Source: Massilia frigida (GTDB taxonomy: Bacteria; Pseudomonadota; Gammaproteobacteria; Burkholderiales; Burkholderiaceae_D). From it: DNA of 64,000 nucleotides. The notes beneath the pieces are model-generated. The model saw nothing but the letters and a program-made list of their open reading frames with translations, did not search any database and was not told the origin of the DNA. Below are positions 14,395-25,379 of the stretch, piece by piece (the stretch's first letter is position 1; each line of letters starts with the position of its first letter). The stretch covers positions 124,001-188,000 of the forward strand of contig NZ_WHJG01000006.1 in assembly GCF_011682175.1 (NCBI RefSeq), given 5' to 3'. Both the position numbers and the translations under genes were made by a program.

Positions 14395-14433
14395 TCGCCA
14401 TAGCGGGTGCCCTCCTGGAGGCCATGCCCGAAT

Positions 14434-14473
14434 CCATCATTGCTCCACATTTCGCCATCATTGCACCACATTT
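14434..14473. repeat. 19-bp direct repeats, 21-bp period, upstream of the RTX-like gene
   Basis: CCATCATTGCTCCACATTT at 14434-14452 recurs as CCATCATTGCACCACATTT at 14455-14473, one mismatch, with two bases between copies. The 21-base period is two helical turns, so both copies face the same side of DNA. They lie between the response regulator gene and the RTX-like start, a natural position for an OmpR-family site. Confidence 0.6.
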
Positions 14474-14531
14474 GCTCTTCAATATGCAGGCTCGGCACAT
14501 ATCGATGCCATCCATGCACCAGGGAGAGAAA

Positions 14532-17500
14532 ATGAGTTTTGGAAAATGGGTCAAGAAAACAGTCAACAAGGTCGGCAAGTCGTTTAGCGATGTCGTCAAC
14601 GACACGGTCAAGGATATCGGCAGTGGCATCGACGACATCGGCAAGAGTTTCGACGACATGGGCGACGCGGCGCGCGGTATTGCCGAGGACATCGCGAAAC
14701 TGGGCTATACCAAGAAAAATTTCGGCAACGGTAACGACAATTTCACGTCCAGTTCGGTAGGCGGCAACTTTTTGTATGGGGGCGGCGGCAACGATACCCA
14801 GCGCGTCACGGCCGGGGCGTACAACGTGCTCAAGGGCGACGATGGGGACGATACGCTCAGCGTGCAGGTCGGCGGCTACAACAAGCTCGACGGCGGCAAC
14901 GGCAACGACAACCTGTCCGTCAGCGCGGGCGCCGATAACATCCTGATCGGCGGCGAAGGCGACGATACCATCTCGATCGGCGCCGGCGCGAGCGCCGAAA
15001 TCGATGGCGGCGGCGGCAACGACCGCATCAGCGTGGCCGCGGGCGGCGCGGTCAAGGTGACCGACTGGAACGGCCACAACACCATCAGCTACAACGCCTT
15101 GTCGGGATCGGTCAACACGGGCGGCGGCAACGATACCGTCACCGGCACCGGCGCCAAGAACACCATCAATACCAATGATGGCGACGACAAGGTCGACATG
15201 AGCGGCGTGAGCAACACGGTGAACGTGGGCAACGGCAACAATACCGTCAACCTGGGCGGCGGCAGCAATGTGGTCAACGCCGGCAACGGCAGCGACCGCA
15301 TCACGGTTGGCGGCGGCCGGAATGTGGTCAACGCGGGCGATGGCGCCAACGTCATCAAGGCCGATGGCATCGCCAACAAGATCGCGACCGGCAGCGGCGC
15401 CGACAAGGTGACCGTGGGTGCCGTGTCGAACGAGATCAGTACCGGCGCGGGCAACGATGAAGTTACCGCCAGCAGCGCCAGCAACATCATCGATACGGGC
15501 GACGGCAACGATACGGTCAAGCTCGACGGCGCATCGAACATTGTTCGCACCGGCAACAACGACGATAGCGTCAATGCAACGGGCGGCTCGAATGTGCTGG
15601 AACTGGGCAGCGGCAACAACAGCGCCAATGCGGCGGGCTTGTCGAACGTCATCAAGGCGGGCGATGGCAATGACAGCGTGGTGGCCATGGGCGGCGTCAA
15701 CACCGTTTCGCTCGCCCACGGCGACAACAGCGTCACCGTCGGTGGCGGCGCCAACATCGTGACGACTGGCAATGGCAACGACAAGATCAACGCTTACGGC
15801 GGCAGCAATACTTTGACCATCGGCAACGGCAGCGACAAGCTGGTGGCGCTGGGCGGCATCAACGTGGTGGTTGCGGGCGATGGCAACGACAACCTCATCG
15901 CCGGTGGCGGCGCCAACGTGATCGGCAGTGGCGGCGGCACCAACAATATCCTCGTGGGTGGCTTGCTGAACGTGGTCTACAGCGGCGGCGGCAGCAACAA
16001 GGTCGGCGCACTCGGCAATACCAACGCGCTGGTGAGCAATGGCGCGTCGAACTTGCTGGCGGCGGTCGGCAATACCAACGTGGTGCTGGCCAACGGCGGC
16101 AAGAATACCGTGCTGGCGGCCGGCATGGGCAATCTGGTCGCCAGCACGGTCGGCGGCAACACGGTGGCGGCGGTCGGCGGCGCCAATGTCATCCTGACCG
16201 AAGTGGGCGGGATGCTCGATGCCGCCAGCGGCGGCCTGGGCAAGGTGCTGGCCGGCGCGGTGCCCGACAAGACCATTGCCACGGCGATCAACAGCGCCAC
16301 CGGCAAGCTGAGCGCCGCCATCCAGAGCGGCAGCGGCAAGGATGTGGTGATCGCGGTCGGCGGCACCAACGTCATGTATACCGGCGCGCAGGATGATGTG
16401 GTCGCTGCCATCGGCGGCAATAACGTGCTGCTGGCCAACGGCGGCAATAACGTCAGCACGGCGATCGGCTCGAATAACCTGGTGATCAATACCGCCGGCA
16501 ACAACGTGATCACGACCCTGGGCAGCGCGAACGTGGTGCTGACCGGCGTGGGCGAGGGCATCACCGACCTGGCCAAAAAACTGGACAAGGCCGTGTCCGG
16601 CAGCGCCACCAGCGCGATTTCCAAATTCCTCGGCAACAATTTGGCCAAGGGCGACGGCAACGACATCGTCACCGCCATCGGTTCGGCCAACGTGGTCTAC
16701 ACCGGCACCGGCAACGACGTGATTACGACGCTCGGCTCGACCAACGTGGTGTGGGCAGGCGCGGGCAACGACGTGGTGACCACGGCTGGCTCGAACAATA
16801 TCGTGTGGGCCGACGCTGGCGTGGATATCGTCAGCGCTGCCGGCAACAATAACCTGATCGTGACCGGCAATTATGCCGAGGTGGCGGCCACCGCCGTCGG
16901 CCTGGTCGATGCGGTCGCCGCTGGCGTCGCGGCCATCGATCTGGTCGGCAAGGCCGGCCTGGCTGGCGCGGCCAGCAGCCAGGGCGGCACGGAAGTGGTC
17001 ACCGTGATGGGCAAGAACAATGTGGTGGTCGGCGCCAGCGGCGCGACCGTCATCACCGCGCTGGGCAGCAATAATCTGCTGGTGACCGGCGCCGGTGACG
17101 ATGTCATCAGCGCGGCCGGCAGCAAGACCGGCATCGTGGCCGGTGCCGGCAACGATGTGGTGACCGCGCTCGGCTCGTACAACGTGGTCGTGGCGGGCGA
17201 GGGCAACAACGTCGTCACCGCCATCGGCAAGGGCAACCTGCTCAGCGGCGGCAGCGGCAACGATGTGCTCACGGCGATCGCGGTCGGCTCCGCCGGCACC
17301 ACCAAATCGAACCTGAACGTGGTGCTCGGCGGCGACGGCAACAATGTCATGACCGTGGTCGGCAAGGACAATATCGCCATCAGCGGCAGCGGCAAGGATG
17401 TGCTGGCCATGGCATCGTACGGCTCGCAAGAGAAAACGACCGAAACCGGCAAGGAAGGCGCCGATACCACGACCACCAGCACCACCAAGTTCGACACCCA

Positions 17501-19166
17501 GTCGAACGTGGCCTGGACCGGCGGCGGCGACGACACCGCCGTGCTGTACGGCTCCCACAATGTGCTGATCGCCGACAGCGGCAACGATACCGTGATCGTG
17601 GTCAATGCCGGCAGCAAGCTCGATTACAAGAGCGAAACGACGAATGGCGCCAATGAAGTGCTGTCGTCGACCAAGGTCAGCGCCGATACGGGCTTTAATT
17701 TCGTGCACACCGGCAGCGGCAACGATACGCTGGTGCTGGCCGGCACCACCACCGTCGGCATGGGCGGCGAGGGCAATGACTTGATCGTCACCGCGGCGCA
17801 AAACAATATCGCCATCGGCGGTGCGGGCAACGACGTCATCATCGGCTTGTCGGAAATGACGGTCTTCAATGCGGTGGAAAGCCTGGTCGAGAATGACTTC
17901 GAGTCGGCCGGCGACTGGATCGGCGCGGCCATGAACTACAACTTTGTCTCGTCCCAGGTCAAGGCATTGACCAGCGGCAGCCTGAGCAAGCTCAACCTCG
18001 TCGGCAACGTGTTGCTGGGCGGCGAGGGCAACGATACCGTGTTCGCCACCAACGCCGCCACCTACATCAGCGGCGGCAATGGCGACGATGTGATGATGGG
18101 CATGGGCTGGGGTGTCATTACCCAGTTGCTGGGCAAGGATGCGAGCAAGCTGAACGGCGCCTGGACGTCGATGAGCGGCGGCTTTGCCGACCTCAGCAAG
18201 TATGTGGGCGACACCATGCTCAAGGACCTGTCGAGCGGCTGGGACCAGATGGGCGCGGGCATCAAGGCCAAGCTGGCGGCGGCAACCAGCAGCGCCGGCA
18301 GCCTGGGCGCGAGCCTGGATGGCGTGAGCGGCAAGGCGCTCGACGCGGTGTCGAACGTGAGCGGTCTGGAGCTGAGCGATTTCAGCGTCGCCGGCGGCCT
18401 GAAAAGCGCGGTCAATGGCGTGTCGGGGGGCGTGAACAGCGCGGTGGCGGGCATCGGCAAGGGCTTCAGCTATGCGGCCGATGCCGATGTGGCGGGCGCC
18501 TTGGCGGATAGCGCAAGCTTTCTCAGCAGTAAGGTTGCCGTGGGCAGCGAGGCGACCTTCGACGGGCTGGAGTGGCTGACCGACAAGCTGGGCATCGACA
18601 TGAACTTCGGCAATTTCAATGGCGCCGAAGGCCTGGTCGGCGGCTTCCTCGCCTATCTGATCGGCTACAAATATGCGGGCGACAACGACTTGCATGGCGG
18701 CGCCGGTAACGACACCTTGTACAGCGGCATGGGCAACGATGACTTGCGCGGCGACAGCGGCACCGATACCTACGTCATCTCGATGGGCGACGGCAAGGAC
18801 ACGATCTATGAAACCGCGGGCGGCAATGACATCATCAAGTTCGCGGCCAACAGCATTTTCTCGGGCGTGAAGATGGAGGCGGCCGGCGTCAAGGCCAACA
18901 TCAGTGGCAAGGACCTGGTGCTCAATTACGTCAACGACAAGGTCTCCTTCGCCAAGGTCACCATCGCCGACTATGCCAGCGTCGACCTGAAGGAAGTGCA
19001 GTTGATCGACCAGGCCGGCGCCCTCGTGTCTACTATTAGTATGCATAGCCTGATCGCCGGCGCTGGCGACAGCGACCCGTATGCGATGACTTCGGTGTGG
19101 ACCGTGAACCATCTCGATGCCTTCGCCGAGCTCATTCTTGTGGGCACGCACCAGCAGGCGGCATAA
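14532..19166 (+). CDS. Giant RTX-like solenoid protein, probably type I secreted
   Basis: A 1,544-residue glycine/asparagine/aspartate-rich protein. The start at 14532 follows AGGGAGAGAAA. Residues 1-55 form an amphipathic lysine/aspartate-rich helix. Near residues 75-200 are RTX nonapeptides such as GGEGDDTIS and GGGGNDRIS. From about 205 to 555, and in later blocks, the unit is an 18-mer close to GSNVVxxGxGNDxVxAxG, in which an Asp-type nonapeptide alternates with an Asn-type one. Helical inserts break the array (for example MLDAASGGLGKVLAGAV). The C-terminus regains canonical RTX (HGGAGNDTLYSGMGNDDLRG) and a tail of about 140 residues, as in type I secreted proteins. No hlyB/hlyD/tolC-like genes are nearby. 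Adhesin, S-layer or ice-binding-like roles are possible. Confidence 0.8.
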   Translation: MSFGKWVKKTVNKVGKSFSDVVNDTVKDIGSGIDDIGKSFDDMGDAARGIAEDIAKLGYTKKNFGNGNDNFTSSSVGGNFLYGGGGNDTQRVTAGAYNVLKGDDGDDTLSVQVGGYNKLDGGNGNDNLSVSAGADNILIGGEGDDTISIGAGASAEIDGGGGNDRISVAAGGAVKVTDWNGHNTISYNALSGSVNTGGGNDTVTGTGAKNTINTNDGDDKVDMSGVSNTVNVGNGNNTVNLGGGSNVVNAGNGSDRITVGGGRNVVNAGDGANVIKADGIANKIATGSGADKVTVGAVSNEISTGAGNDEVTASSASNIIDTGDGNDTVKLDGASNIVRTGNNDDSVNATGGSNVLELGSGNNSANAAGLSNVIKAGDGNDSVVAMGGVNTVSLAHGDNSVTVGGGANIVTTGNGNDKINAYGGSNTLTIGNGSDKLVALGGINVVVAGDGNDNLIAGGGANVIGSGGGTNNILVGGLLNVVYSGGGSNKVGALGNTNALVSNGASNLLAAVGNTNVVLANGGKNTVLAAGMGNLVASTVGGNTVAAVGGANVILTEVGGMLDAASGGLGKVLAGAVPDKTIATAINSATGKLSAAIQSGSGKDVVIAVGGTNVMYTGAQDDVVAAIGGNNVLLANGGNNVSTAIGSNNLVINTAGNNVITTLGSANVVLTGVGEGITDLAKKLDKAVSGSATSAISKFLGNNLAKGDGNDIVTAIGSANVVYTGTGNDVITTLGSTNVVWAGAGNDVVTTAGSNNIVWADAGVDIVSAAGNNNLIVTGNYAEVAATAVGLVDAVAAGVAAIDLVGKAGLAGAASSQGGTEVVTVMGKNNVVVGASGATVITALGSNNLLVTGAGDDVISAAGSKTGIVAGAGNDVVTALGSYNVVVAGEGNNVVTAIGKGNLLSGGSGNDVLTAIAVGSAGTTKSNLNVVLGGDGNNVMTVVGKDNIAISGSGKDVLAMASYGSQEKTTETGKEGADTTTTSTTKFDTQSNVAWTGGGDDTAVLYGSHNVLIADSGNDTVIVVNAGSKLDYKSETTNGANEVLSSTKVSADTGFNFVHTGSGNDTLVLAGTTTVGMGGEGNDLIVTAAQNNIAIGGAGNDVIIGLSEMTVFNAVESLVENDFESAGDWIGAAMNYNFVSSQVKALTSGSLSKLNLVGNVLLGGEGNDTVFATNAATYISGGNGDDVMMGMGWGVITQLLGKDASKLNGAWTSMSGGFADLSKYVGDTMLKDLSSGWDQMGAGIKAKLAAATSSAGSLGASLDGVSGKALDAVSNVSGLELSDFSVAGGLKSAVNGVSGGVNSAVAGIGKGFSYAADADVAGALADSASFLSSKVAVGSEATFDGLEWLTDKLGIDMNFGNFNGAEGLVGGFLAYLIGYKYAGDNDLHGGAGNDTLYSGMGNDDLRGDSGTDTYVISMGDGKDTIYETAGGNDIIKFAANSIFSGVKMEAAGVKANISGKDLVLNYVNDKVSFAKVTIADYASVDLKEVQLIDQAGALVSTISMHSLIAGAGDSDPYAMTSVWTVNHLDAFAELILVGTHQQAA

Positions 19167-19337: not shown

Positions 19338-20258
19338 ATGTCGATTTCAGAAAGCACTGTCACCTTTTTCAACAGGACGGTCACCGAGTACGATGGCGAA
19401 GAACCGGTCGAGTTGTCCGACCATATCGTCTACCGTTTGTCACTCGACTACGACGACGAGCGCACGATGACGGAACTGATCGAAGAGTTCCTCGGCCGCG
19501 TCGACAAATCCCAGCTCGACGCGCTGATTATCGGCAAGTGGAGTGATGACTGCGATGAGAGTTCGGAGTCCATCGTCAATGTCCTGGTCGCGCAAGCGGC
19601 CGAGCTGCCCGCGATGCGCGCCCTGTTCATCGGCGACATGACGTATGAAGAGTGCGAAATTTCCTGGATCATGCAGAGCGACGTGACGCCGCTGCTGAAT
19701 GCGTTTCCGCTGCTGGAAGAGTTCCGCGTGCGCGGTTCCAACCATCTGGAAATTCAACCGTTCACCCACGCGCACCTGCGCAAGCTGGTGATCGAAAGCG
19801 GCGGCTTGCCATCCGAACTGGTCGAAGCGCTGACGGCATCGACCATACCGGCGCTGACCCATCTGGAGCTGTGGCTGGGCACCGATGAATATGGTTTCTC
19901 CGGGAGCGTGGACCTGTACCAGCGCCTGGTGGCCAAGCTGCGCACCCCGACCCTGGAATACCTGGGCTTGCGCGATGCCTCCATCGCCGACGAACTGGCC
20001 GAGTGGCTGGCGCAAGACGAGGTGGTCGCTTGCCTGGACACGCTCGACCTGTCGCTCGGCATCCTCGGTGACGTCGGCGCCGAAGCCTTGTTCAACAGCC
20101 CGTACGTGCCCAAGCTGCAAACCCTGGACCTGGAACACCACTACATTTCCGAAGCGTGGCAGGAAAAGCTCAAGACCTTGCCGATCACGGTCGACCTGTC
20201 CGATCCGCAAGAGATCGACGACGAGGACGACTCACGCTACGTGGCCGTCTCCGAGTAA
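19338..20258 (+). CDS. STM4015 family leucine-rich-repeat protein
   Basis: A 306-residue acidic protein of the STM4015 type, the first gene of an STM4015-4014-4013-4012-4011 operon. The N-terminal third is mixed (VYRLSLDYDDERTMTELIEEFL). The rest shows leucine-rich repeats at irregular spacing: FPLLEEFRVRGSN, LRKLVIESGGL, LTHLELWLG, LEYLGLRDASI, LDTLDLSLGILGDVGAEAL and LQTLDLEHHYI. Such folds usually bind proteins, so it could recruit a partner or substrate. The ribosome site is weak. No catalytic motif is visible. The family name is recalled from knowledge of the Salmonella locus; its biochemical role is not known to me. Confidence 0.85.
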   Translation: MSISESTVTFFNRTVTEYDGEEPVELSDHIVYRLSLDYDDERTMTELIEEFLGRVDKSQLDALIIGKWSDDCDESSESIVNVLVAQAAELPAMRALFIGDMTYEECEISWIMQSDVTPLLNAFPLLEEFRVRGSNHLEIQPFTHAHLRKLVIESGGLPSELVEALTASTIPALTHLELWLGTDEYGFSGSVDLYQRLVAKLRTPTLEYLGLRDASIADELAEWLAQDEVVACLDTLDLSLGILGDVGAEALFNSPYVPKLQTLDLEHHYISEAWQEKLKTLPITVDLSDPQEIDDEDDSRYVAVSE

Positions 20259-20291
20259 GGTGGCGCCACTGTCCGAGCCGGGCTGGCGCGC

Positions 20292-21551
20292 ATGCTAGAC
20301 GGCATCCATGGCGAACGCAGGCCGGACGGCGAGCCGAACGCCGATCCGAACGCCGATCCGAACGCCGATCTGAACGGCAATCTGAACGCCGATCCGAACG
20401 GAAAGCCGAACGGCAAGCCGAACGGCGATCCGAACGGCAAGCCGAACGGCAAGCCCTTCGTGTTGTTGGGTGTGCGTGGCGGCAAGCGGGAAAAGCTGGC
20501 CCAGGCGGGGCGTGCCGCGCTCGGCCTGCCTGCGGCGGAACTCGTCGACTGGGCCGAGTGGCTGGAACAGCCGGCGCTGCTGAGCGCCAGACTGGCCAGG
20601 GAGCCGTGCGTGTTCAAGATTGACTCGCCGGGCGACGATGCACGCCTGCACGATATGCTGATCCGACAGGGCTGCAAGGTGCTTGGCCTCGGCATGCCGC
20701 GCTTGCCTGATCGCGGGGAAATTTCCGTATCCGGTGCATGGTTCGCCGGGTTCACCCAGGCCCTGCGGGGCTTGGCGGCGGAACTTTCGGCGCTGCCCCA
20801 TGTCCAAACGATGAACGCGCCGCATGAGCTGCTGCTGATGACGGACAAGCTGGCTTGCCAGCAGCACTTTGCTGCGCGCGGCATTCCGGTTCCCCGTTTG
20901 CTCGGTCCCATCGAGGGGTATGCGCACCTGCGCGCCGTTCTCGACGAGCACGGTCTCAATCAAGTTTTCCTGAAAACGCGCTACGGATCGAGCGCGTCCG
21001 GCGTGGTGGCGTACCGCCGCAACAGCCGCGGGGCTGAGCAAGCCACCAGTTCCGCCGACCTCGTGCACGGGGAGGGCGGGGCGCGTCTCTACAACGTCAA
21101 GCGCTTGCGCAGCTACAATGCGCAGGCCGATATTGTGCAACTGGTCGACTTGCTGGCGGGCCAGCAAACCTACGCCGAAGCGTGGATTCCCAAACCGCGC
21201 CACGGCGATGGCCATTACGACGTGCGCGTGGTGACCCTGGGCGGCCAGCCGGCGCACCGGGTGGCGCGGGTCGGCACGCGCATGATGACCAATCTGCACC
21301 TCGACAACCAGCGCGCCGACGTGGCGAGCTTGCTGGGTGAAAAGGATCATGCCGCGCTGGAACAGACCGCGCGCGCGGCAGCCGCCACTTTTCCGCAAAG
21401 CCACGTCATCGGCCTCGATATCGTCGTGCGCAAGGGACGCGCTCACGTGCTTGAAGCGAATGCCTTCGGCGACCTGCTGCCCAAGCTGTTGTGGCAGGGG
21501 CACGATACCTATGCCGCACAGTGGCACACCTTCGCATCCCATGAAGCCTGA
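20292..21551 (+). CDS. STM4014 family ATP-grasp protein with tetrapeptide-repeat N-terminus
   Basis: A 419-residue protein. From about residue 56 (FVLLGVRGGKREKL) it matches the STM4014 type. The ATP-grasp fold is seen in DKLACQQHFAARGIPVPRLLG, VFLKTRYGSSASGV, EAWIPKPR and the metal/ATP motif DIVVRKGRAHVLEANAFGD. Such enzymes ligate a carboxylate to an amine or thiol through an acyl phosphate. Residues 13-55 are tetrapeptide repeats (ADPN, GKPN), not expected in the family. The ATG at 20292 lacks a good ribosome site; a GTG at about 20460 would remove the repeats and start at the conserved strand. The following gene start overlaps its last 11 bases. Confidence 0.82.
   Translation: MLDGIHGERRPDGEPNADPNADPNADLNGNLNADPNGKPNGKPNGDPNGKPNGKPFVLLGVRGGKREKLAQAGRAALGLPAAELVDWAEWLEQPALLSARLAREPCVFKIDSPGDDARLHDMLIRQGCKVLGLGMPRLPDRGEISVSGAWFAGFTQALRGLAAELSALPHVQTMNAPHELLLMTDKLACQQHFAARGIPVPRLLGPIEGYAHLRAVLDEHGLNQVFLKTRYGSSASGVVAYRRNSRGAEQATSSADLVHGEGGARLYNVKRLRSYNAQADIVQLVDLLAGQQTYAEAWIPKPRHGDGHYDVRVVTLGGQPAHRVARVGTRMMTNLHLDNQRADVASLLGEKDHAALEQTARAAAATFPQSHVIGLDIVVRKGRAHVLEANAFGDLLPKLLWQGHDTYAAQWHTFASHEA
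20328..20456 (+). repeat. 12-bp tandem repeat (about 10.75 copies) inside the STM4014 gene
   Basis: Units such as GCCGATCCGAAC and GGCAAGCCGAAC repeat from 20328 to 20456, encoding (A/G)(D/K/N/E)(P/L)N tetrapeptides. Because the unit is a multiple of three, copy-number change would keep the reading frame. Two sub-blocks are visible: ADPN-type on the left, GKPN-type on the right. Confidence 0.9.
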
Positions 21552-22374
21552 TCCACGCTCGATTCCCGACATGAACCGGGTGGTCGGCAGTCATGACATT
21601 GTGTTCATCACGCTCGACACCCTGCGCTACGACGTGGCCCAGCGCCTGTACGAGGCGGGCGAGCTGCCGGTGCTCGGACCGCATTTGCCGCCCGGCGGCT
21701 GGGAATGCCGGCACAGCCCGGCCAGCTTTACCTATGCGGCCCATCACGCGTTTTTTGCCGGCTTTTTGCCCACGCCCGACCGTCCCGGACGGCATCCGCG
21801 CCTGTTCGCGACCGCTTTTCGCGGCAGCGAGACGACCTCGGCCCACACCCACGAATTTGCGCAGGAGAGCGTACCGGCCGGGCTGGCTGGCGCTGGCTAC
21901 CGTACCATCTGCATCGGCGGGGTCGGCTTCTTCAACAAGGAAACGGCACTCGGCTGCGTCTTGCCGGGCATGTTCCAGGAGAGCCACTGGAAACGCTCGC
22001 TGGGCGTGGAAGGCCGCGACTCGACCGAGCGCCAGGTGGCGCTGGCGATTGCGCGTTTGAACGCGCTGGGCCAGCAAAGGGTGTTCTTGTTTATCAACGT
22101 CGCAGCCATCCATTCGCCCAATCGTGGCTACCTGCCGGGCTGCAAGAGCGACAATCTCGACAGCCACGCAGCGGCGCTGCGCTATGTGGACGGGGCGCTG
22201 GCGCCCCTGTTCGCCACCTGCGCGGCGCGGGCGCCGACGTTTGCCATCGTCTGCTCCGACCACGGCAGCGCCTACGGCGAAGATGGCTTTCGCGGCCATC
22301 GCATCGCTCACGAAACCGTATGGAACGTTCCATACGCACATTTCTTTATCGACTTTAAGGGAACGACGCCATGA
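21541..22374 (+). CDS. STM4013/SEN3800 family hydrolase (sulfatase/alkaline phosphatase fold)
   Basis: A 277-residue member of the alkaline phosphatase superfamily. The first strand DIVFITLDTLRYDVA carries the metal-binding aspartate. Later motifs are FLFINVAAIHSPNRGY and IVCSDHGSAYGEDGFRGHRIAHETVWNVPYAHFF, the latter with the typical DHG metal site and a downstream histidine. No cysteine/serine of the CxPSR sulfatase maturation motif is visible, so true sulfatase activity is doubtful; phosphate or phosphonate transfer is as likely. Start choice is uncertain: ATG 21541 overlaps the previous gene, and ATG 21571 begins ten residues later. Its stop overlaps the next start (ATGA). Confidence 0.85.
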   Translation: MKPDPRSIPDMNRVVGSHDIVFITLDTLRYDVAQRLYEAGELPVLGPHLPPGGWECRHSPASFTYAAHHAFFAGFLPTPDRPGRHPRLFATAFRGSETTSAHTHEFAQESVPAGLAGAGYRTICIGGVGFFNKETALGCVLPGMFQESHWKRSLGVEGRDSTERQVALAIARLNALGQQRVFLFINVAAIHSPNRGYLPGCKSDNLDSHAAALRYVDGALAPLFATCAARAPTFAIVCSDHGSAYGEDGFRGHRIAHETVWNVPYAHFFIDFKGTTP

Positions 22375-23750
22375 ACCATCCCGCCACACCCGGCACGCTC
22401 GCCCAGCGCATGCGTCACACGCCGTACCAGGCGTATTCCTATTCCTATCCGCACAAGGCGGCCTACCGAACGCTGGCGGCGCCAGCCTCGCTGGAGGATT
22501 TATGGGCCGGACAGGACCGTTCGGCCCTGTTCGCCTATATCCACATCCCGTTCTGCGAAATGCGCTGCGGTTTCTGTAATCTGTTTGCGATGGCACGTCC
22601 GCAACCGGACATGGTGGAACGTTATGTGGCGCAGGTGGTCCAACAGATGCGTGTACTCGACAAGGTGCTGGGCGAGCGCAAGTTTGCGCGTTTTGCGCTC
22701 GGCGGCGGCACGCCCACGTTCTTGTCGGCGGCGCAGTTGCAAACGCTGCTCGATGGCGCGCGCGATATCCTGGGCATCGATTTGCAGACCACGCCGGCCG
22801 GCATCGAAGCCTCGCCCGAAACCGTGACGCCGGAACGCATGGGAGTGTGCCGCAGCATGGGCATCGACCGTGTCAGCCTGGGCATCCAGAGCTTTGCGGC
22901 GGGCGAGATGCGTTCGCTGGCGCGGCCGCAGCAGAACGAGGTGGTGACGCGGGCGATCGGCCATATCCGCGATGCGGGTTTCCCGACGCTCAACCTCGAC
23001 CTGATTTACGGCATTGGCGGGCAGACGGTGGAGAGCCTGCTGGCGTCGATCGACAGTGCGCTGGCGTTCAAGCCGGAGGAATTGTATCTGTATCCCTTGT
23101 ACGTGCGCCAGCATACGGGGCTGGGCAAGATTGCCAACAGAAAGGGGGCCGCTTCATTCGATCCGATTGTGCTCAATCAAGAAGGCGACAGCCGCATGCA
23201 ATTGTACGAGGCGGCGCGCGACCATTTGCGCGCGCGTGGCTACGTGCAGGTGTCGATGCGCATGTTCCGCGCACCCCATGCGCCTGATGACGCAGGGCCG
23301 TCCTATTGCTGCCAGAACGATGGCATGGTGGGTTTGGGTACCGGTGCGCGTTCGTACACGCGGGACCTGCATTATTCGACCGATTACGCGGTCGGGCGGG
23401 CCGACACGATCGGCATCATCGACAGTTACCTGGCGCTGGACGCCGACAGTTTTACCCATGCGCACCATGGTTTTGCACTTGGGCCGGACGAGCAGCGGCG
23501 CCGCTACGTGATTCAGTCGCTGCTGACCGATCCGGGGCTCGATCCGGCGGCGTACACGCAGCGTTTCGGCGGCGATTGCATGCAGGATTTGCCGCAGTTG
23601 CATGAGCTGGGCGAGCTGGGCTTGCTGGAAGAGGGCAGTGCGATACTGCGCCTGAACGACCGCGGGTATGAATACGCCGACACCATTGGTCCGTGGCTGG
23701 CGTCGGAAGGCGTGCGCCTGCTGATGGCTGACGGCGGCACGACATGCTGA
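22371..23750 (+). CDS. STM4012 family radical SAM protein (HemN-like)
   Basis: A 459-residue radical SAM enzyme resembling coproporphyrinogen III dehydrogenase HemN/HemW. The cluster motif is C62-x3-C66-x2-C69 within YIHIPFCEMRCGFCNLF. It is followed by FALGGGTPTFLS, GIEASPETV, RVSLGIQSF and LNLDLIYGIGGQT, all HemN-like. A C-terminal HemN-type domain of about 130 residues ends in GGTTC. Similarity to HemN suggests a radical mechanism on a tetrapyrrole or peptide, but it should not be annotated as HemN: it belongs to this five-gene cluster. Its start overlaps the hydrolase stop. The 3' end has been duplicated just downstream. Confidence 0.9.
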   Translation: MNHPATPGTLAQRMRHTPYQAYSYSYPHKAAYRTLAAPASLEDLWAGQDRSALFAYIHIPFCEMRCGFCNLFAMARPQPDMVERYVAQVVQQMRVLDKVLGERKFARFALGGGTPTFLSAAQLQTLLDGARDILGIDLQTTPAGIEASPETVTPERMGVCRSMGIDRVSLGIQSFAAGEMRSLARPQQNEVVTRAIGHIRDAGFPTLNLDLIYGIGGQTVESLLASIDSALAFKPEELYLYPLYVRQHTGLGKIANRKGAASFDPIVLNQEGDSRMQLYEAARDHLRARGYVQVSMRMFRAPHAPDDAGPSYCCQNDGMVGLGTGARSYTRDLHYSTDYAVGRADTIGIIDSYLALDADSFTHAHHGFALGPDEQRRRYVIQSLLTDPGLDPAAYTQRFGGDCMQDLPQLHELGELGLLEEGSAILRLNDRGYEYADTIGPWLASEGVRLLMADGGTTC

Positions 23751-23907
23751 GCATTTGTCCGGACGAGCGGTATTGGGTGGACAATTCCGGCGCCATCCCG
23801 CGCCCGAATGAGCGGAGCGTTGGCGGCGCAGTCCGGGGTGGGCCGTGGCTCGCCCCGGAAGGCGTACGCCTGCCGATGATCGACGGCGGCACGGCATGCT
23901 GAGCATG
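23688..23907 (+). repeat. Diverged tandem duplication at the STM4012/STM4011 junction
   Basis: The last 60-odd bases of the STM4012 gene plus the next gene's first codons (about 23688-23755) recur at about 23842-23907. Both copies encode GPWLA(S/P)EGVRL then DGGT(T/A)C, a TGA stop, and an overlapping ATGCTGAGCAT start. Copies differ at about ten positions and are offset by 154 bases. Confidence 0.8.
23744..23902 (+). CDS. Small 52-residue ORF created at the duplicated junction
   Basis: This short frame starts at the first ATGCTGAGCAT, overlapping the STM4012 stop, and ends at the TGA of the second copy, overlapping the STM4011 start. It begins MLSI, like STM4011's MLSM, and ends with a second copy of STM4012's C-terminal tail. 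Between them are about 28 residues (CPDERYWVDNSG and onward) with no match that I know. It keeps the stop/start overlap intact on both sides, so it could be translated by coupling. It may be a duplication by-product; a peptide substrate role is only speculation. Confidence 0.35.
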   Translation: MLSICPDERYWVDNSGAIPRPNERSVGGAVRGGPWLAPEGVRLPMIDGGTAC

Positions 23908-24831
23908 CTGCCGGCTGCCGCGCTTGGGCAAGCGCAAGGGGCGCAAGCGCCCGTGCAGCCGCCGCTGTTGTCGCTGCTGTATCGGGGCACTCTGTCGGGA
24001 TGCAATTACGACTGTGCCTACTGCCCCTTCGCCAAGCGGCGCGACAGCCGGGCCACGCTTGCCCGCGATGCACTCGAAGTGGCGCGTTTTGTCGCCTGGG
24101 TCGGTACGCAAGAGCGGCCCATCAGCGTGCTGTTCACGCCATGGGGCGAGGGCATGATCCGGCGCCACTACCGCGATGCCATCACGGCCCTGTCCGGCAT
24201 GGCGCACGTGCGGCAGGTGGCGATCCAGACCAATCTGTCGGGGCCGCTGGCCTGGCTGGAACAGGCCGACAAGCGCAAGGTGGGGCTGTGGTGCACTTAC
24301 CATCCGAGCCAGGTGCGGATGGAGCGCTTCGTCGAGCGTTGCGAGCGGCTGGAGCGGATGGGCGTTCATTTTTCGGTGGGCATGGTGGCGATGCGCGAGC
24401 ATTTCGACGCTATCCGCGCCTTGCGCGCCGCGCTGCCGCAACAGCATTATCTCTGGCTTAACGCCTACGACCGGCGTGGACCGGCTTACTACCAGCCCGA
24501 GGATCTGGCGTGGCTCGATGCCATGGACCCCTGGTTCGGCTACAGCCGCAATCCCGAGATGTCGCACGGGAAAGCGTGCCGCGCCGGGTCGGAAGCGCTG
24601 TCGGTTGATGGTGACGGCGAAGTGCAGCGCTGCCATTTCGTGCCGCAGCGGCTGGGCAATCTGTACGCGGATCGCCTGGACGACATGCTTGTCGAAAAGC
24701 CGTGCAGCCGCCTGAGGAAATGCGACTGCTATATTGGTTATGTGCACCGCCAGGACTTGCCGTTTTATGATGACTTCGGCGCGGGTGTGCTGGCGCGGAT
24801 TCCATTGCACTTGATGCCGGTGCGGGGGTAA
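23896..24831 (+). CDS. STM4011 family radical SAM protein with cysteine-rich C-terminus
   Basis: A 311-residue radical SAM enzyme. The cluster motif C36-x3-C40-x2-C43 lies in LSGCNYDCAYCPFAK, followed by VLFTPWGEGMI and VAIQTNLSG. Its C-terminal quarter has a SPASM-like cysteine set: KACRAG, EVQRCHF, then CSRLRKCDCYIG, enough ligands for one or more auxiliary iron-sulfur clusters. SPASM-type enzymes often modify peptides or proteins. The start ATG overlaps the TGA of the small junction ORF. No good ribosome site is seen, so translation is probably coupled. Last of the five conserved family genes. Confidence 0.88.
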   Translation: MLSMLPAAALGQAQGAQAPVQPPLLSLLYRGTLSGCNYDCAYCPFAKRRDSRATLARDALEVARFVAWVGTQERPISVLFTPWGEGMIRRHYRDAITALSGMAHVRQVAIQTNLSGPLAWLEQADKRKVGLWCTYHPSQVRMERFVERCERLERMGVHFSVGMVAMREHFDAIRALRAALPQQHYLWLNAYDRRGPAYYQPEDLAWLDAMDPWFGYSRNPEMSHGKACRAGSEALSVDGDGEVQRCHFVPQRLGNLYADRLDDMLVEKPCSRLRKCDCYIGYVHRQDLPFYDDFGAGVLARIPLHLMPVRG

Positions 24832-24854
24832 ATGCGATGCTGCCAGGAGTTGCA

Positions 24855-25379
24855 ATGCTTCAAATTACCGATCCACACCGTGTTCTCGTCGAGACTGGCA
24901 TGACGGCATGCTTTGACTCCCATCTTTTTTCCTTTGAACTGGTGCTGGGGGACGACGAAGCAATTGTCAGGTTATCCAGAGGTACCGGCAAGGACCGCAC
25001 TCGTGGGATGGCCGGCGAACACCGCGCGCCTGCAAGCGTTGCCGCCGGTTTCATCGCCAGTGTCAATGCAGTACTTGCGCGGGAGGAAAGAGAACTCGGG
25101 GGAAGGTTCACCACGCAACACTTTGCATGGATTGCCGAAGGCGAACCCGGTAGCGCGCCGCTGCTCGATATTGCGTCGAATGACATGCCCAGGGAGTATT
25201 TGGAAGACATGGTTGCCGATCCAAGGACGCAGCCCGGTTTGGCCGAACGGATGCGTACAGCGTTGTCGCAGGATTCCCATAACCGGGCTTACGCTATTCA
25301 TATGCTGGCGCAGCAATTGGCGCATACCTTGGGGTATGGCCCGATTCGTGCCCCCGCTGTCCGGGTGGCGCCCCGCTGA
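24855..25379 (+). CDS. Hypothetical protein, probable sixth gene of the STM4011-4015 operon
   Basis: A 174-residue soluble protein starting at the ATG preceded by AGGAGTTGCA, 23 bases after the STM4011 stop. An in-frame ATG at 24837 lacks such a site. It has few cysteines (one, in GMTACFDSHLF), no signal peptide and no family that I recognise. Codon choice in the first half is less GC-biased than its neighbours (for example runs of TTT, ATT and CAA), hinting at a different history. A GC-rich hairpin spans its stop codon and probably ends the operon. Confidence 0.6.
   Translation: MLQITDPHRVLVETGMTACFDSHLFSFELVLGDDEAIVRLSRGTGKDRTRGMAGEHRAPASVAAGFIASVNAVLAREERELGGRFTTQHFAWIAEGEPGSAPLLDIASNDMPREYLEDMVADPRTQPGLAERMRTALSQDSHNRAYAIHMLAQQLAHTLGYGPIRAPAVRVAPR

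Follow-up and report, generated by a model that had tools for sequence, protein, structure and literature searches.

A conserved C-terminal glutamate tail on STM4015 leucine-rich-repeat proteins as candidate substrate of the five-gene STM4011-STM4015 ATP-grasp and radical SAM cassette

We analyzed a 64,000-nucleotide (nt) stretch of the Massilia frigida genome (contig NZ_WHJG01000006.1, positions 124,001 to 188,000; hereafter the window), which carries the genes STM4015, STM4014, STM4013, STM4012 and STM4011, and found that leucine-rich-repeat (LRR) proteins of the STM4015 family finish in a conserved tail, R-Y-x-x-V-x-E, that ends exactly at its glutamate. On the evidence of sequences and structure models, we give a probability of about one half to the reading that this cassette is a C-terminal protein-modification system acting on STM4015-type LRR proteins, its chemistry being predicted. 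The core argument for modification is the coincidence of a Glu placed exactly at the C terminus with a ligase, STM4014, whose nearest class works on C-terminal Glu. What this analysis contributes beyond the family names is a candidate substrate, the STM4015 tail: if this reading of the tail is true, the heptapeptide that closes STM4015 is the substrate, STM4014 acts first, as a C-terminal-Glu ligase, and a widespread five-gene pathway, present in eight phyla, gains a concrete and testable substrate.

In STM4015 proteins, a variable, acidic linker connects the LRR body to the tail. In a first comparison of ten sequences from four phyla, the last residue, Glu, was the sole invariant residue past the LRR body. 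Among 117 STM4015 open reading frames (ORFs), 113 end in Glu, while Arg, Tyr and Val occupy the other key positions in 110, 105 and 99 of the 117, with the consensus R-Y-[VICAST]-[AESQ]-V-[GSA]-E; in a set widened by copies from further stretches, 134 of 140 end in Glu and 120 fit R[YF]xx[VL]xE directly before the stop. When the bodies were clustered at 60, 50 and 40% identity, Glu-ending representatives numbered 54 of 57, 26 of 28 and 9 of 10, and the whole tail was fitted by 44, 22 and 6 representatives, respectively. Conservation places the key columns (R, Y, V, E) at the 95th, 89th, 81st and 94th percentiles and the other three tail columns between the 48th and the 60th; besides the seven linker columns listed in Table 1, the other two reach the 27th and 47th, on a measure in which gaps, too, lower the score. 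The endings of four more distant copies are YVSVGE, YVSASE, YVSVGE and YTSVGE. As controls, Glu is the last residue in only 5 of 326 proteins from the other four cassette families and in none of 14 generic LRR proteins.

Outside the family, an STM4015-type tail was found in 2 of 19,754 locus ORFs not called STM4015 (the denominator includes the STM4015 ORFs); one looks like an STM4015 remnant, and the other is a pentapeptide-repeat protein (locus L127, 5476-5988, minus strand) with the tail HRYELVGE, whose gene directly adjoins two STM4015 genes of the same orientation. A DNA pattern for the tail recovered the window's own tail at contig position 144235. From the pattern matches, 5 and later 10 stretches that appeared plausible by eye were selected for ORF inspection: tail ORFs in the first 5 comprised STM4015 homologs (L150, two in L151), an 87-residue STM4015 remnant (L154) and an unrelated-looking 81-residue ORF (L152), and the 10 later stretches held no tail-bearing ORF.

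The tail is also shared among diverged paralogs that are served by one enzyme set. Across 81 loci (the window plus the best 80 of at least 566 STM4013 relatives found in a genome scan), the stretch examined contained no STM4015 copy in 11 loci and 1 to 6 copies in the rest, and up to 8 copies occur per genome (G683), some of them far from the cassette. Paralogs of one stretch (79 pairs from 30 loci) share a mean body identity of 49%, versus 84% at the four key tail positions, and identity over the seven tail columns exceeds body identity in 70 of the 79 pairs. Of the copies located away from the cassette, that of L150, two of the three in L151 and those of L161-L167 retain the tail, with one key position deviating in L165 (RYVAAGE); the L159 copy has diverged and lost its tail. 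The initial annotation of this DNA, made from the sequence alone, had left open whether the LRR protein is a recruiter or a target of the enzymes, and since its C-terminal tail is conserved, we favor target or carrier.

For STM4014, profile and fold comparisons suggest that the RimK/LysX class is nearest, without membership in either family. Enzymes of this class load amino acids onto C-terminal glutamates. A 45-sequence STM4014 profile searched against the PDB returned LysX, ArgX/LysX and RimK first, weakly (E 0.001-0.003) and with an inositol-phosphate kinase among them, and this search yielded no close relative among solved structures. In an NCBIfam scan, the 45 members matched rimK_fam (28), MptN (16), LysX (8), GAK (7), CofF (5) and the best Ddl model (3). 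With hhalign, STM4014 scored 97% against three RimK/LysX sequences (E 1.1e-10, 175 columns) and 96% against two RimK-like ones, versus 58% against three and 82% against six Ddl sequences over 59-68 columns, and below 2% against a group that we take to be GshB. The structure model, with a predicted local distance difference test (pLDDT) score of 95, had ArgX with LysW (two chains) and then LysX as its top three Foldseek matches, with RimK among the best. Invariant residues stand at the usual ATP-grasp catalytic positions, and we assume that they have the usual roles. Alignment with a Herpetosiphon LysX places the LysX element GSWGR on the conserved STM4014 segment GSSASG, and the LysX loop ITNTARGG on the invariant TNLHL stretch. 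In LysX, GSWGR reads the EDWGE tail of LysW, and the Asn-Thr pair of the loop is tied to substrate choice (PMC10433800). GSSASG and TNLHL may thus be family-specific replacements, as would be expected if both tail and amine differ.

STM4012 matches HemN (1olt) over nearly its whole length (E 1.6e-52) and the methyltransferase NocN over the core only (E 5.9e-36), and it retains CxxxCxxC. STM4011, a radical S-adenosylmethionine (SAM) protein like STM4012, keeps the three radical SAM cysteines and five C-terminal cysteines. It has a mixed set of weak relatives, with NrdG2, MoaA and viperin alongside maturases of peptides or proteins such as HxsB, PapB, AmcB and anaerobic sulfatase maturase. STM4013, a 267-residue protein of the alkaline phosphatase superfamily (model pLDDT 92), has invariant Asp, Thr and His positions, to which we assign roles by assumption; Thr54, invariant in 35 of 35, presumably occupies the nucleophile position. 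Thr is found there in phosphodiesterases and phosphoethanolamine transferases, and in sulfatases a Cys or Ser that is converted to formylglycine. The fold matches include EptC, EptA, MCR-1, sulfatases and NPP. The sulfatase fold initially assigned to STM4013 is correct as a fold, but a sulfatase function was rejected in view of the invariant Thr and of the phosphoethanolamine transferases among the best fold matches, though these include sulfatases too. Because of the invariant Asp, Thr and His positions and the EptC-, EptA-, MCR-1- and NPP-type matches, we call STM4013 a putative phospho-hydrolase or transferase.

Within the window, all five proteins exceed their curated NCBIfam cut-offs (Table 1). 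The family calls and the gene order given by the initial annotation were therefore upheld, with every gene on the plus strand; the cassette itself ends at 24831, short of the operon end at 25379 that had been assumed. The overlapping stops and starts also described there exist only between STM4013 and STM4012 (ATGA, 22371-22374), the other junctions being gaps of 33 nt (STM4015-STM4014), 19 nt (STM4014-STM4013) and 145 nt (STM4012-STM4011). At fold level, Pfam assigned LRR (under threshold) to STM4015, ATP-grasp to STM4014, Sulfatase (PF00884, over threshold) to STM4013, Radical_SAM and HemN_C to STM4012, and Radical_SAM and SPASM, both just under threshold, to STM4011. STM4013 most likely starts at the ATG at 21571 rather than at the start of the longer mechanical ORF.

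Table 1. Features of the STM4011-STM4015 cassette, in window coordinates (aa, amino acids).
Feature	Position	Strand	Details
STM4015 leucine-rich-repeat protein, 306 aa	19338..20258	+	NF038076, 338.9 bits (cut-off 275); proposed substrate or carrier
Variable acidic linker of STM4015, ahead of tail	20196..20234	+	7 of 9 aligned columns at or below the 14th conservation percentile
C-terminal tail RYVAVSE	20235..20255	+	Stop codon 20256-20258 directly after; proposed acceptor site, terminal Glu
STM4014 ATP-grasp ligase, apparently nearest RimK/LysX class	20292..21551	+	NF038074, 333.9 bits (cut-off 175)
12-nt tandem repeat, about 12 copies	20312..20455	+	Codes for PN-rich low-complexity insert near STM4014 N terminus
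STM4013 alkaline-phosphatase-superfamily putative hydrolase or transferase	21571..22374	+	NF038075, 393.1 bits (cut-off 250)
STM4012 HemN-like radical SAM protein	22371..23750	+	NF006067, 560.9 bits (cut-off 380)
68-nt copy of STM4012 3' end	23839..23906	+	85% identical, spacing 152; between STM4012 and STM4011; whole region 23687-23906
STM4011 radical SAM protein, SPASM-like cysteines	23896..24831	+	NF038073, 374.6 bits (cut-off 200)

The closest named relative of the window is Massilia atriviolacea (L070), whose STM4013 is 92% identical, and two local features set the window apart from it. The 145-nt gap before STM4011 can be attributed to the 68-nt duplicate of the STM4012 3' end that sits there, whereas the two genes abut or overlap in M. 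atriviolacea; the STM4011 start was set at 23896, the first in-frame ATG inside the duplicated segment, the next ATG being at 23905. The PN-rich repeat precedes the ATP-grasp domain of STM4014, and M. atriviolacea lacks it. Five nt past STM4011 begins a 180-residue ORF (24837-25379), which had no family match in NCBIfam/Pfam-type profile scans and a single homolog, in M. atriviolacea, among 89 other loci compared (L061-L149). Just upstream of the cassette, 14424-19166 encodes a 1580-residue protein with RTX calcium-binding repeats.

The five genes are inherited together over a wide phylogenetic range. By the organism names in their titles, the STM4013 relatives belong to Pseudomonadota, Myxococcota, Cyanobacteriota, Chloroflexota, Actinomycetota and Planctomycetota, and plasmid-borne Deinococcota and Bacillota bring the total to eight phyla. 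All five genes occur within the stretch around STM4013 in 64 of the 81 loci, and in 54 of these 64 they are adjacent, in canonical order and on one strand. Among the remaining 17 loci, 12 are truncated at a contig end. In L094, L106, L109 and L112 one or two cassette genes are missing even though the flanks are complete, and L149 lacks STM4014 despite 10 kb examined upstream. STM4013 can possibly occur apart from the cassette, or cassette parts be dispersed, since L090, L101 and L128 have several kb beside STM4013 without other cassette genes and L141 has only STM4011.

We also scanned 121 genomes of one actinomycete family, that of Yinghuangia (G662), which we take to be Streptomycetaceae, for STM4011, STM4014 and STM4015. 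About half (58) exceed the STM4014 cut-off, with 57 for STM4011 and 61 for STM4015, and all 57 STM4011 genomes also contain STM4014 and STM4015; were the genomes independent, which they are not, STM4011 would fall within the STM4015 set to this extent by chance with a probability of about 10^-29. Together with the 64 complete loci, this bears out the co-conservation claimed by the initial annotation, and the five-gene arrangement is not due to chance. The odd genome with STM4014 and no STM4011 call, G677, has broken cassette frames: STM4011, STM4012 and STM4013 are interrupted and STM4015 and STM4014 are open (L160), reflecting either a decaying cassette or sequence errors. Nearer to the window strong matches are rare, with 1 of 398 genomes in its phylum, its own, over the STM4013 cut-off and 1 of 274 in its class over that of STM4015. 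The latter cut-off is strict, because clear STM4015 copies in G001 and G270 (in G270 beside STM4014 or STM4011) fall below it; other weak STM4015 and STM4013 matches in these scans were dismissed as apparent generic LRR or alkaline-phosphatase-superfamily noise and left uncounted.

A tblastn search of plasmids with STM4012 returned 23 records, and 6 of the 9 examined carry complete cassettes in the same order as the window (Streptomyces, two Deinococcus, Methylobacterium, Paenibacillus and Salmonella). The plasmid of Streptomyces SAT1 has STM4012 alone. On the Rhizobium (L066) and Cupriavidus (L067) plasmids, an STM4012-like gene accompanies a class I methyltransferase gene without the remaining cassette; that of R. 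tropici adjoins pseudoazurin and cbb3 oxidase genes.

A conserved small peptide gene, for which the initial annotation had suggested surveying the neighborhood, did not emerge from the cassette interior or from flank ORFs of at least 60 residues. Inside the cassette, neighboring matched domains lie at median distances of 15-53 nt, and only 6 of the 54 canonical loci have any distance above 300 nt, which leaves little space for such a gene. In the flanks, where ORFs of at least 60 residues were clustered, only DUF6745 (29 loci) and a partner of about 100 residues (24 loci) recur across distant groups among the 45 largest clusters; most of the others occur in Janthinobacterium alone or only in Streptomyces and its kin. 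The DUF6745 loci lie between L061 and L148, in Actinomycetota, Deinococcus, Methylobacterium and Chloroflexota. This pair is absent from the window's 6-kb flanks, and no STM4015-type tail was present in the DUF6745 proteins and partners of the four loci checked; within this size range, a small precursor peptide gene was rejected on the result of this clustering. Anti-phage defense was rejected as well, PADLOC having given one weak radical SAM cross-match only.

The literature we could search, which excludes subscription-only papers and preprints, contained no product, substrate or hypothesis for STM4011-STM4015, in agreement with the initial remark that no product is assigned, and within the same limits neither the family names nor ATP-grasp, radical SAM and leucine-rich repeat combined gave a match. 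The genes do figure in published tables: a binding-site table of a sigma-54 study lists STM4013, and a positive-selection table lists STM4015 with a value of 0.0693 for Ty, which we take to be Typhi.

Our proposal can be stated as a sequence of steps. STM4014 would bind the STM4015 tail, use ATP to activate a carboxylate of its terminal Glu and join an amino compound to this residue; STM4011 and STM4012 would then alter the added residue and/or conserved tail residues, the Tyr at -6 being the obvious candidate for a radical SAM change, and STM4013 would remove or move a phospho group. The modified end would stay on the LRR protein, so that different LRR recognition modules receive a common, enzymatically built end. 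Which carboxylate and which amine take part, how the radical SAM enzymes act and whether a product is released are steps that we infer. A lasting modification appears more likely than the release of a small molecule, because a single enzyme set has up to 7-8 diverged LRR proteins to serve and the five genes encode no peptidase. The initial suggestion of an ATP-grasp and radical SAM pathway probably acting on a protein is supported. More tentatively, and with the odds clearly against it, the cassette may represent an undescribed protein-maturation class in which one ATP-grasp ligase, a pair of radical SAM enzymes and a phospho-hydrolase equip diversified LRR (occasionally pentapeptide-repeat) proteins with one and the same enzymatically built group on the conserved C-terminal heptapeptide, combining variable recognition modules with a common, non-genetic chemical head. 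Should our reading of the tail be right, STM4015 would be, to our knowledge, the first folded repeat protein whose C terminus is the site of radical SAM chemistry.

Several observations weigh against a C-terminal modification of STM4015. Three genomes that have STM4015 and lack both STM4014 and STM4011 (these three genes being the ones searched for) keep the C-terminal Glu, two with intact tails and one decayed to PRHVAVEE, and L149 keeps its tail though no STM4014 lies in the stretch examined. Conversely, six of the 140 copies lack the terminal Glu (one each in L103, L106, L113, L133, L151 and L159), the first five beside other copies that end in Glu, and the Salmonella tail, MNAMYTE, keeps only this Glu and the small residue before it. 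A degenerate DNA pattern for the tail matched 131 times versus 131 for its reversed control in 20 genomes, and in a second search 35 versus 38 times; as it is no commoner than the control, the tail is a family feature and not a genome-wide tag. The placement of STM4014 is not unanimous either, because Pfam prefers ATPgrasp_ST (27 of 45 members) and YheC/D (19) over RimK (5). Against LysX alone hhalign gives only 45%, DdlB ranks fourth by fold with an E value about 12-fold higher, and STM4014 scores 26 bits on rimK_fam (cut-off 143.4) and 15.1 on LysX (275.6). The role given to STM4013 is a guess, and the conserved tail itself could be a docking signal rather than the modified site.

The main rival, which we consider unlikely though far from negligible, regards STM4015 as a reusable carrier, like LysW or a pearlin scaffold: STM4014 would charge the terminal Glu with an amino acid, which STM4013 and the radical SAM enzymes would convert in its bound state, and an outside peptidase would release the small product. 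There is precedent in the EDWGE motif of LysW, whose C-terminal Glu is loaded by LysX, of the class that STM4014 resembles (PMC10433800), and in pearlins, for which biosynthesis on an amide-bound carrier with a radical SAM step is established (PMC9303977). Herpetosiphon even contains both types, with a LysW-like ORF (identified by motif and place) ending in EEDWGE beside LysX (L208) and STM4015 copies that end in RFAAVTE, RYIAVSE and RYIAVSE, a fourth having lost its tail. A carrier for a single pathway, however, would not have to exist as up to 7-8 diverged LRR paralogs in one genome for one enzyme set, the five cassette genes include no release peptidase, and an LRR body of 300 residues is large for a carrier.

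Docking or sorting, by which the tail serves only to bring in the enzymes, a membrane or a partner protein while the LRR body offers a different substrate and the reactions take place elsewhere, strikes us as quite improbable. Short conserved C-terminal peptides behind flexible linkers are common docking signals, and the two genomes with intact tails and neither STM4014 nor STM4011 are consistent with such a role; against it, the most constant tail position by count is the terminal Glu (134 of 140, and kept in Salmonella), and the cassette contains a ligase whose nearest class reacts with a C-terminal Glu. Least probable, in our judgment, is that STM4015 is an unusually large precursor of a ribosomally synthesized and post-translationally modified peptide (RiPP), its LRR body serving as leader and its heptapeptide, which contains Tyr and Glu (compare pyrroloquinoline quinone and mycofactocin), as a core that the radical SAM enzymes would cross-link and that would be cleaved off to give a peptide or a redox cofactor. 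Peptides are the usual targets of SPASM-type radical SAM proteins, STM4011 members weakly match several peptide maturases, and RiPP pathways usually have several precursor copies for one enzyme set. Nevertheless, neither a peptidase nor a recognition-element domain turned up in a Pfam scan of the five cassette proteins, about 250 residues of the supposed leader form a well-conserved LRR domain, and the Salmonella tail has no Tyr at -6.

The proposed modification of the STM4015 tail can finally be compared with what is already described. The NCBIfam models (NF038073, NF006067, NF038075, NF038074 and NF038076, for STM4011 to STM4015, respectively) give names only, and neither the tail nor the ligase class is part of these names. 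The system of LysW with LysX/ArgX is similar in that both LysW and STM4015 end in an acidic stretch and a short conserved motif with terminal Glu, and in that STM4014 appears nearest to the same ATP-grasp class. It differs in its small carrier with zinc-binding cysteines as opposed to an LRR body, in the motif EDWGE as opposed to RYxxVxE (RYVAVSE in the window), in GSWGR where STM4014 has GSSASG, and in the many candidate carriers per genome of the cassette, in which radical SAM enzymes replace the usual enzymes of the LysW pathway. PEARLs (peptide aminoacyl-tRNA ligases) are not ATP-grasp proteins, and no PEARL ligase is encoded by the cassette's five genes, the part of the genome that was searched for one. 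They use aminoacyl-tRNA, and in pearlins, which are 3-thia-amino acids, the amino acid is amide-linked to the carrier C terminus and then remodelled, once by a radical SAM enzyme (PMC9303977). Addition at a C terminus followed by remodelling is also what we propose for the cassette, but the pearlin carrier is a short peptide. RimK acts on the C terminus of ribosomal protein S6 (RpsF) (PMC7343187), as STM4014 is proposed to act at a protein C terminus, and it is among the best structure matches of STM4014; STM4014 nevertheless lies far below the RimK cut-off, its proposed substrate is an LRR protein, and the cassette adds two radical SAM enzymes and a hydrolase.

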